A DNA stretch of 16,981 bases from Lachnospiraceae bacterium (GTDB taxonomy: Bacteria; Bacillota_A; Clostridia; Lachnospirales; Lachnospiraceae): the NCBI GenBank assembly GCA_024684065.1, contig JAIKXO010000140.1, positions 1 to 16,981 on the forward strand. The letters run 5' to 3'. Under the pieces are notes generated by a model, which was not told the origin of the DNA, did no database searches, and worked only from the letters and a program-made list of their open reading frames with translations. This document shows, one piece after another, positions 1,630 to 16,981 of this stretch (positions within the stretch are counted from its first letter, which is position 1; every line of letters starts with the position of its first letter). Made by a program: the position numbers and the translations under genes.

Positions 1630-1669
1630 ATCCTCTCCTATGCCATACGGCAAATCAAAGTATTGAAAT

Positions 1670-1751
1670 GATTCGGTCTGCAGAGCAGACCGAATCGGCA
1701 CGAACCAAGGTTCGTGCCTAAGCGCACGATTTGCTTCGCAAATCGGCGCAG
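1670..1751 (-). repeat. Modular palindromic intergenic element, copy A
   Basis: A complete copy in minus orientation. Read on the minus strand: module 1, GCGCCGATTTGC-GAA-GCAAATCGTGCGC (1749-1722); module 2, GGCACGAACC-TT-GGTTCGTGCC (1718-1697); module 3, GATTCGGTCTG-CTCTG-CAGACCGAATC (1696-1670). It starts 20 bases after the tRNA-Ala and ends 40 bases before the next start codon. Translating it gives spurious peptides in several frames. Confidence 0.85.
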
Positions 1752-1771: not shown

Positions 1772-1844
1772 TGGAGCTAATCAGACTCGAACTGACGACC
1801 TCTTGCATGCCATGCAAGCGTTCTCCCAACTGAACTATAGCCCC
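1772..1844 (-). tRNA. tRNA-Ala (anticodon GGC)
   Basis: A 73-base cloverleaf. The acceptor stem is GGGGCTA with TAGCTCC (one G-U pair) and the discriminator is A. The D arm is GTTC-AGTTGGGA-GAAC. The anticodon arm is CTTGC-ATGGCAT-GCAAG, giving anticodon GGC. The T arm is GTCAG-TTCGAGT-CTGAT. The 3' CCA is not encoded; five T residues follow directly. It lies between the kinase gene and repeat copy A. Confidence 0.95.
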
Positions 1845-4340: not shown

Positions 4341-4462
4341 CCTTATATCCCGTTTACAATAAGATCACGACTGCGCCGATTTGCGAAGCAAATCGTGCGT
4401 TTAGGCATAAACATCAGTTTATGCCGATCCGATCTTTGATCGGATCATTACCTTATATCCCG
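4341..4462. repeat. 12-bp direct repeats flanking palindromic element B
   Basis: CCTTATATCCCG occurs exactly at 4341-4352 and at 4451-4462. The second copy is the end of feoB, including its TAA stop codon. The 98 bases between hold repeat copy B plus an 18-base lead-in. This resembles a target duplication made when the element inserted, or a recombination scar. Confidence 0.75.
4371..4449 (+). repeat. Modular palindromic intergenic element, copy B
   Basis: A complete copy in plus orientation. Module 1: GCGCCGATTTGC-GAA-GCAAATCGTGCG (4373-4399). Module 2: GGCATAAAC-ATCA-GTTTATGCC (4404-4425). Module 3: GATCCGATC-TTT-GATCGGATC (4426-4446), then ATT. Module 3 begins six bases after the feoB stop codon when read on the minus strand, but no T-run follows it. 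Confidence 0.85.
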
Positions 4463-11271: not shown

Positions 11272-11350
11272 CTGGTAAAAGGTGTGCTTTACTAAAACGG
11301 GTACGCCGCAATGAAGACCGGCTATACCGATAATAGTTTTTACACTCAGT

Positions 11351-11389
11351 AAAAAAGATCCCTGCCGCTTCATGCGTCCGGGATCTTTT
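11351..11389 (-). terminator. Rho-independent terminator of the arabinofuranosidase operon
   Basis: On the minus strand AAAAGATCCC (11389-11380) pairs with GGGATCTTTT (11362-11353 side), with an inner GC-rich loop, and ends in T6 (11356-11351). It lies about 240 bases after the arabinofuranosidase stop codon, with the repeat cluster between. The A-tract on the other side would also allow termination on the plus strand. Confidence 0.8.
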
Positions 11390-11394
11390 AAACT

Positions 11395-11628
11395 GTGCCG
11401 ATCCGATCTTTGATCGGATCATTTACTGACTGCGCCGATTTGCGGAGGTGCGCCGATTTGCGGAGGTGCGCCGATTTGCGAAGCAAATCGTGCGCTTAGG
11501 CATAAACTTTAGTTTATGCCGATTCGGTTCGTTTTTACGAACCGAATCATTTCCATGTGAATCGTGCGCTTTGGCACGAACTTTAGTTCGTGCCGATTCG
11601 GTTCGTTTTTACGAACCGAATCATTTCC
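11395..11628 (+). repeat. Modular palindromic intergenic element, compound copy C
   Basis: Three copies are nested in plus orientation. C0 is only a module 2 end plus module 3 (GATCCGATC-TTT-GATCGGATC, 11400-11420). C1 has an expanded module 1 (11431-11498), module 2 GGCATAAAC-TTTA-GTTTATGCC (11499-11520) and module 3 GATTCGGTTCGT-TTTT-ACGAACCGAATC (11521-11548). C2 has a truncated module 1 (11560-11571), module 2 GGCACGAAC-TTTA-GTTCGTGCC (11573-11594) and the same module 3 (11595-11622). Each module 3 is followed by ATTT. The cluster ends three bases from the arabinofuranosidase stop codon. Confidence 0.9.
11431..11484 (+). repeat. 18-bp tandem duplication in module 1
   Basis: TGCGCCGATTTGCGGAGG occurs at 11431-11448 and 11449-11466. 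A third, intact module 1 begins at 11467. Each truncated unit stops where the right arm of the hairpin should begin. Confidence 0.85.
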
Positions 11629-11631
11629 TAT

Positions 11632-14093
<2,462 letters not shown>

Positions 14094-16744: not shown

Positions 16745-16981
16745 TTACGCAGTAATTTGATTTTGATTATTCCAAAGCAAAGAAAAGATGCCCTTGCGGA
16801 AGCCGTAACCCCGTGCCTGCGCAGCCTGAATACAGTCTTTATCATGAATGCGGTCACAGGGTTTCTCCATGTATTCTGCCCTGCGGTATCTGTCCGGCGG
16901 GACGTTATCCCCGCTTTTTACATACTTACGAACTGCGCCGATTTGCGAAACTGCGCCGATTTCGGAGCAAATCGTGCGCTT
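16745..16981 (-). CDS. Unrecognised small or broken reading frame, open at the window edge
   Basis: The frame runs from the window edge to TAA at 16745 (78 codons). The last 61 codons have a coding look and higher GC than the A/T-rich DNA after them; the first 17 or so lie in repeat copy D. An internal ATG at 16870 would give a 41-residue peptide beginning MEKPCDRIHDKDC and containing ARGYGFRKGIFSLLW, but its ribosome-binding site is poor. I recognise no family. It may be the end of a gene starting outside the window, a very small gene, or a remnant cut by the repeat. Confidence 0.35.
   Translation of the reverse strand, partial: KRTICSEIGAVSQIGAVRKYVKSGDNVPPDRYRRAEYMEKPCDRIHDKDCIQAAQARGYGFRKGIFSLLWNNQNQITA
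16933..16981 (+). repeat. Modular palindromic intergenic element, copy D (cut by window edge)
   Basis: A partial module 1 (CTGCGCCGATTTGCGAAA, 16933-16950) is followed after 18 bases by a second, fuller module 1 (16951-16981) ending GCAAATCGTGCGCTT. Modules 2 and 3 would lie outside the window. The 18-base spacing of the duplicated unit matches copy C. Confidence 0.8.

Follow-up and report, generated by a model that had tools for sequence, protein, structure and literature searches.

Three-hairpin repeats in the 16,981-nucleotide stretch analysed here (the window, from a Lachnospiraceae bacterium) probably belong to a family of non-autonomous mobile elements, short DNA repeats of about 87 bp, recognised by their hairpins and lying with fixed polarity just upstream of ribosome-binding sites; we give this reading a probability of about 0.58. 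The elements have a fixed-order anatomy with a bulged T, conserved unpaired ends and near-perfect Watson-Crick stems whose arms change together, and they are abundant in few genomes. They are mostly intergenic, turn their first hairpin (M1) towards the start codon and Shine-Dalgarno sequence of the next gene, occupy sites that are not common to species and show no detectable target-site duplication. From these features we infer a mover, the DNA strand that it reads and the rule by which it lands.

An earlier note on this DNA had described the same element at four loci with a fixed module order. All four carry it, one on the minus strand and the others on the plus strand, and the window variants in which both arms of a module change together are present as listed there. 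Scores below refer to R1, a covariance model built from 67 copies (alignment A1) that were drawn from the window and the three carrier genomes, so that part of its matches arise by construction.

1664–1751, minus strand: complete element (101.9 bits, copy also in the training set; read from the sequence), with M3 at 1670–1696, M2 at 1697–1718, a TAA linker at 1719–1721 and M1 as an outer GCGC stem at 1722–1749 with the bulged base at 1726.
4371–4452, plus strand: complete element (84.6 bits, in the training set), with M2 at 4404–4425, M3 at 4426–4446 and the end ATTACC.
11393–11426, plus strand: short unit without the M1 stem and M2, read from the sequence as CTGTGCC, M3 (GATCCGATC-TTT-GATCGGATC) and ATTTAC.
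About 11431–11465, plus strand: the M1 left arm (TGCGCCGATTTGCGGAGG, 18 bases) twice over, from a repeat search.
11466–11554, plus strand: complete element (98.7 bits, in the training set; fold z-scores −9.8 and −10.2), with M1 as GCGC 11468–11471, CGATTTGC 11472–11479, loop GAA, GCAAATCG 11483–11490, bulged T 11491 and GCGC 11492–11495, followed by TTA, M2 at 11499–11520, M3 at 11521–11548 and ATTTCC at 11549–11554.
About 11559–11628, plus strand: element minus the M1 left arm (59.7 bits for 11564–11628), with M2 (GGCACGAAC/GTTCGTGCC) at 11573–11594, M3 at 11595–11622 and then ATTTCC.
16933–16981, plus strand: element start with one extra M1 arm, truncated by the window end (22.6 bits for 16951–16981; repeat search).

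The stretch 11395–11628 is a composite of a short unit, two M1-arm iterations, one complete unit and one unit lacking the M1 left arm. Adjacent pairs of hairpins of at least 8 bp are confined to the known element places in the window and were absent from five simple base shuffles of it; the window elements are not due to chance. The window genes, on the minus strand, encode a response regulator, a Ser/Thr kinase, FeoB, a transglutaminase, a DUF58 protein, a MoxR-type ATPase, an alpha-L-arabinofuranosidase and ABC transporter parts, and those adjoining elements are unrelated to one another. The feoB stop codon (4453–4455, gene on the minus strand) directly follows the element at 4371–4452, and the arabinofuranosidase stop at 11632 comes right after that at 11559–11628.

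Several other features of the window were recorded. A tRNA gene (1772–1844, minus strand) lies directly upstream of the element at 1664–1751; a tRNA was also the sole match in the window to Rfam 15 at the gathering score, and a search up to E 0.5 over the window and loci L183 and L197 gave nothing at the three-hairpin elements. A 24-base tandem repeat at 2546–2998 encodes a TEAPEPAP-type linker in the Ser/Thr kinase. An inverted repeat around AAAAAAGATCCC..CGGGATCTTTTAA at 11347–11395, perhaps a terminator, immediately precedes the short unit at 11393–11426. Such short forms also occur in two of the carriers, RUI362 (G001) and UBA3814 (G005), and short units of CTGCGCC, M3 and ATTTCC were noted at L182, L272, L287, L203 and L205 as well as here.

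The family unit comprises three hairpins in the fixed order M1-M2-M3, laid out as CT, M1 (a GCGC-footed hairpin with a bulged T), TTA, M2 (a 9-bp hairpin), M3 (a 9–12-bp hairpin) and ATTTCC, so that the consensus on the M1-to-M3 strand reads CT GCGC(8 bp, short loop)T GCGC TTA GG(..9 bp..)CC GAT(..9–12 bp..)ATC ATTTCC. The M1 core is a single 12-bp stem, GCGC-CGATTTGC-GAA-GCAAATCG-T-GCGC, with the bulged T in its foot. A script parsed 179 copies (139 from RUI362, 33 from UBA3814, four from the third carrier RGIG3564, or G004, and three from the window), leaving out four of 183 candidates for an atypical end. In these copies the bulged T was kept in 177, TTA in 165, CT in 153 and ATTTCC in 147, and Watson-Crick pairs filled 5223 of 5370 stem cells on the M1-to-M3 strand (G.T 74, A.C 37, other 36), the Watson-Crick and bulged-T counts being biased towards expectation by a parser that accepts only well-paired stems and a single unpaired base in M1. 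At least one bulge-less copy (L209:6589-6675) belongs to A1 but escaped the parser. Three copies folded on both strands gave z-scores of −9.6 to −10.6. A coding function was rejected, as unit lengths run from 79 to 92 with no three-base rule.

The search for further genomic copies by covariance model that the earlier note had proposed was productive: R1 matched at least 120 copies in RUI362 (120 candidates scored, 120 matched), 76 in UBA3814 and eight in RGIG3564, all three of them Lachnospiraceae. In 20 RUI362 contigs taken by number regardless of matches (202 kb), R1 gave ten matches at E ≤ 1e-5, and by extrapolation the whole genome would hold about 180 copies. The 34 other genomes of the carriers' genus yielded none, so that carriers make up three of 37. 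Under tighter filters, with 11 candidates taken per genome, RUI362 was the sole positive among 397 family and 391 class genomes, sets that are samples and may lack some carriers. Scanning genomes, one per species, for the M1 core with its loop left free returned 110 stretches; among the 80 listed, most from Lachnospiraceae came from RUI362. When up to three mismatches were allowed, the M1 pattern matched 98 times in that genome, against none for a reversed control pattern, a count that takes both strands together and includes some copies twice since M1 is nearly palindromic.

The three-hairpin unit was seen in none of 16 loci outside Lachnospiraceae with M1-pattern matches that were checked by eye, including L001, the only one searched with R1. 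BLAST of one copy against phages and plasmids gave no match, and 21 viral stretches with an 18-base sub-pattern, searched together with L001, gave one weak R1 match (E 0.04) that was taken as chance. Stretches of AC2029 and RUG11997 (L215–L220) gave only two weak R1 matches (E 0.009 and 0.065). Near relatives of the window by FeoB (78–79%) are in G075, G157 and G194; no element was found at E 0.001 in the eight genomes of G075's genus, and six near genomes gave only one weak match (E 0.138, G075). Because the sequence after feoB differs in the three relatives' loci compared, these offer no unoccupied counterpart to the window's own element sites.

These searches also brought up other repeats. 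Tandem CATGATTTGCTTGATTTGC repeats surround the M1-like match of L001, an IMG/VR contig. Lachnospiraceae bacterium AC2029 (L008, L010) carries a different multi-hairpin intergenic repeat with the same CGATTTGC/GCAAATCG palindrome, after which come other hairpins and AAGCACCGT. An unrelated repeat, GACACTTGCACCCGATTTGC..GTGCGTT..TGCAGTGCAGGTG, occurs in three Anaerolineae/Chloroflexi loci (L003, L006, L031). Intergenic regions of UBA3814 (L209, L306, L295) hold a further hairpin family, whose arms resemble CTTATTCGATATTTGC..GCAAATATCGAATTGG but vary (CGACATTTGC..GCAAATGTCG in L295); in L209 it lies between remnants of three-hairpin elements.

Standard pairs fill 97.6% of 2138 cells in the 67 copies of A1, and sliding the structure lowers pairing to 21–41%. 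The covariation sought in the earlier note exceeds shuffles in four of five measures, among them both-side change in 21 of 32 pairs (11.5 in shuffles) and 233 cells altered on both sides (53.7 in shuffles), values that none of 500 shuffles reached; further pair types did not exceed the shuffles (38 versus 36.0, with 98/500 as high). RUI362 shows M1 variants with both arms altered: CGATCTGC/GCAGATCG, CGACTTGC/GCAAGTCG, CGATTCGC/GCGAATCG, CAATTTGC/GCAAATTG and CGGTTTGC/GCAAACCG. The 85 best R1 matches have Watson-Crick pairs in 2619 of 2704 cells, with G.T exceeding A.C by 51 to 15 on the M1-to-M3 strand.

The earlier note had taken paired substitutions to imply selection for base pairing. The co-change beyond shuffles stands, but the inference was too strong: passages of PMC8794818, and likewise of PMC8604942, describe replication template switching as able to make hairpin arms alike and to flip their loops, and since both arms can change at once in this way, paired changes alone are no proof of pairing selection. 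The elements might accordingly be passive palindromes, old copies from duplication or recombination whose arms are kept complementary by template switching, with no mover and no function. Loops in both senses are as expected from this process, in M1 (TTT 21, AAA 10) and in some M3 hairpins (GCTTGC 8, GCAAGC 5), and the short units would fit a deletion between the GCCGAT words that stand before the M1 stem and before M3. M2 loops, however, keep a single sense (TTCA 62 to 0, CT 58 to 1, CTTG 14 to 0 and TTTA 14 to 0), and the closest pairs of copies (30 pairs, 96–98% identity) differ mainly on one side, with 0.63 one-sided against 0.10 two-sided differences per pair. The account also leaves polarity and dispersal unexplained; we regard it as improbable. 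In 39 independent pairs of at least 93% identity there were 32 one-sided and 12 two-sided differences, while distant pairs (63–71% identity) show 7.5–8.3 two-sided against 1.7–2.6 one-sided differences; mismatches thus appear to be private and transient.

The intergenic enrichment that the earlier note asked about was seen. Grouped by position, the 179 parsed copies make 156 arrays (133 with one copy, 23 with two), 134 of which lie outside script-called ORFs and 22 inside, in sequence with a non-coding fraction of about 10%. What the earlier note did not mention is a polarity towards the Shine-Dalgarno sequence of the next gene. In the 89 arrays between co-directional genes, M1 faces the downstream start in 80 and the reverse holds in nine (P = 2e-15), although the ORFs were called by a simple script and some starts are wrong as a result. 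M1 lies 10–20 nt from the start codon, next to the Shine-Dalgarno sequence, in 46 of the 80 M1-facing arrays; 20 of the 80 lie close to the start but away from the stop, six the reverse, 34 near both and 20 otherwise placed. The other arrays are at a locus edge (15), between divergent genes (16) or between convergent genes (14), and in the 16 divergent pairs a start falls within 25 nt of the M1 side in six and of the M3 side in none. Ahead of M1, the consensus of 114 non-tandem flanks is TCC-N4-CT (T 56, C 52 and C 74 at −9 to −7; C 92 and T 88 at −2 and −1), in which TCC is the complement of a Shine-Dalgarno sequence. This TCC precedes 38 of 47 start-proximal copies against 12 of 32 far from a start, and being weaker in the latter it may be no more than the neighbour's Shine-Dalgarno sequence. 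Within arrays, the junctions read ATTTCC, one to five bases, CTGCGCC.

Both strands fold equally well in the three copies folded, so selection on structure only would not pick an orientation, and the bias reflects either directed insertion or a strand that matters. A rival reading is a cis-acting mRNA element whose hairpins, between cistrons or in a 5′ leader ahead of the ribosome-binding site, would modulate how the downstream gene's RNA decays, is processed or is translated, as the polarity, the M1-to-start distance, the strong folding and the co-changing arms could suggest. Selection on the mRNA strand, however, predicts more G.U than A.C, and the reverse was seen on that strand (37 to 74 in the parsed copies, 15 to 51 in the best R1 matches). 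Few wobble pairs occur, and their bias is towards the strand opposite the neighbouring mRNA, which argues against selection on mRNA and fits a strand-specific reading at the DNA level. The asymmetry is modest and partly due to shared ancestry (P = 6e-4 for 74 to 37, uncorrected for ancestry, with 14 of the 74 cells at one position). The genes beside the window elements are unrelated, the family occurs in three of 37 genus genomes with no Rfam match, and orthologous gene starts are rarely occupied together, as set out below; regulation in cis is an unlikely explanation.

In line with the presence-or-absence comparison that the earlier note had called for, orthologous sites differ between genomes. 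Across 125 orthologous gene pairs from carrier-genome stretches and the window, an element lies upstream in at least one genome in 26 and in both in one, against the 1.4 shared sites that occupancies of 17 and 10 in 125 would predict; the 25 of 26 sites occupied in one genome only reflect gain or loss, which this comparison does not separate. A stricter parser, which missed a copy, gave no shared sites among 20. Where the sequences are readable, one genome has stop codon, element and intact Shine-Dalgarno sequence and the other an element-less gap, as seen base by base for RUI362 L274 versus UBA3814 L293 and RUI362 L259 versus UBA3814 L291. Among relatives at other loci, the nearest to a copy lies in the same genome for 138 of 139 copies in RUI362, 29 of 33 in UBA3814 and none of four in RGIG3564, the three window copies having no own-genome copies to match. 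The best dispersed pair of copies is 98.8% identical.

By eye, the consensus ends GGAAAT and GGCGCAG are not complementary, so there are no terminal inverted repeats, and the ends CT-GCGCC and ATTTCC lack a GTAG or CGTC tetranucleotide. Target-site duplication was not detected in 53 isolated copies, either by suffix match (2.51 versus 2.46 permuted, 142/500 as high) or by longest common word (4.23 versus 4.15, 71/300 as high). The linked RAYT/Y1 transposase that the earlier note had suggested did not appear: PF01797 was found in none of the three carriers, whose drafts may be incomplete, while one of seven searched records (AC2029) and five of 14 controls were positive. A REP/BIME-type family moved by a RAYT, to which many intergenic hairpin copies, tandem arrays and the lack of target duplication might point, is very improbable given this result, the untagged ends and a direct three-hairpin unit in place of an inverted REP pair.

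Other candidate enzymes gave no clear mover. A PF04986 (Y2, IS91-type) transposase occurs once in RUI362 (C209), on a locus with no element, and was absent from RGIG3564, UBA3814 and seven non-carriers, absences that are weak evidence because none of 14 controls was positive. An IS110-type enzyme (PF02371) is present in 15 of 37 genus genomes, with one match in each of the three carriers and in 12 of 34 non-carriers; it may be the mover, but it is not carrier-specific, and no element lies on the single carrier locus searched, L316. Partial modules number 76 (58 lone M1 and 18 lone M3, including contig-end cuts, the doubtful L168 and some units missed by the parser), and no autonomous copy enclosing a gene was seen among them.

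For the mobile repeats that we favour, a trans-acting enzyme or complex would read the hairpins and the bulge on a single DNA strand and insert new copies at the upstream side of a Shine-Dalgarno-like sequence. That sequence would stay with its gene, so insertions would be fairly harmless. ATTTCC, the right end, is similar to the CTCC/TTTCC stretch ahead of M1; an inserted copy could therefore offer the next landing place, and head-to-tail arrays would result. If mobility is limited to well-paired copies, mismatches would remain private to ageing ones. As a tentative and rather doubtful extension, the landing site could be the Shine-Dalgarno sequence itself, used by an undescribed mover other than a Y1/RAYT enzyme that reads three hairpins strand-specifically, leaves translation signals intact and has its landing site re-created by the far end of each copy. 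Within this extension, copying might even start at the M1 end and pass through RNA, since more partial copies retain M1, on the gene side, than the far end; part of the regions examined had been chosen by an M1 pattern, some lie at contig ends, and gene-side deletions would hurt the Shine-Dalgarno sequence.

Small palindromic repeats are common and few of their movers have been identified. Because this family is dense, directional and turning over between related species, comparing strains should make it possible to find its mover and events of gain. If landing at Shine-Dalgarno sequences were true, it would be a natural instance of intergenic targeting that does little damage, keeps one orientation and recurs well over a hundred times within one genome. 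The family also provides a test case for pairing selection versus template-switch repair of hairpins.

In its general behaviour the family works like REP or BOX elements but lacks defining features of each. ERIC, RU and other MITE-like repeats are non-autonomous intergenic repeats, and those accounts of them that we drew on also place them inside operons; the present family differs in its three separate hairpins and in having neither terminal inverted repeats nor detected target duplication, which likewise sets it apart from classical MITEs with a DDE transposase. REP/BIME elements are not known to show target duplication, and none was detected here either. In the partial accounts used, they and REPINs with a RAYT resemble the family in being short, intergenic palindromes of high copy number that form arrays and spread within lineages, whereas here three different hairpins stand in direct order over about 87 bp, with an orientation linked to where the next gene begins. 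Passages of PMC3733652 define REP and REPIN by a GTAG or CGTC tetranucleotide at the hairpin foot; this tag is missing, and no Y1 transposase was found in the three carriers.

BOX of S. pneumoniae, with its boxA, boxB and boxC modules, is treated with RUP and SPRITE in passages of PMC3049150 and consists of modular intergenic hairpins in about a hundred copies with a variable number of modules. The likeness by description in modular units, copy number and variable modules does not extend to the terminal inverted repeats and the target duplications on insertion described for BOX in the same source, neither of which was seen here. A 2008 survey of 40 genomes reported multi-copy intergenic stem-loop families, such as Clop-1 of C. 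perfringens and Clot-1 of C. tetani (PMC2267715); these are similar by description, and the parts of the survey used name no Lachnospiraceae. No description of the three-hairpin family was found in open-licence literature, and these small, apparently mobile repeats seem not to have been described before. HUH mobile elements are cleaved strand-specifically and transpose as single-stranded DNA by an HUH enzyme; an indirect likeness to them may lie in the conserved bulge, the lack of target duplication and the strand bias of the wobble pairs.
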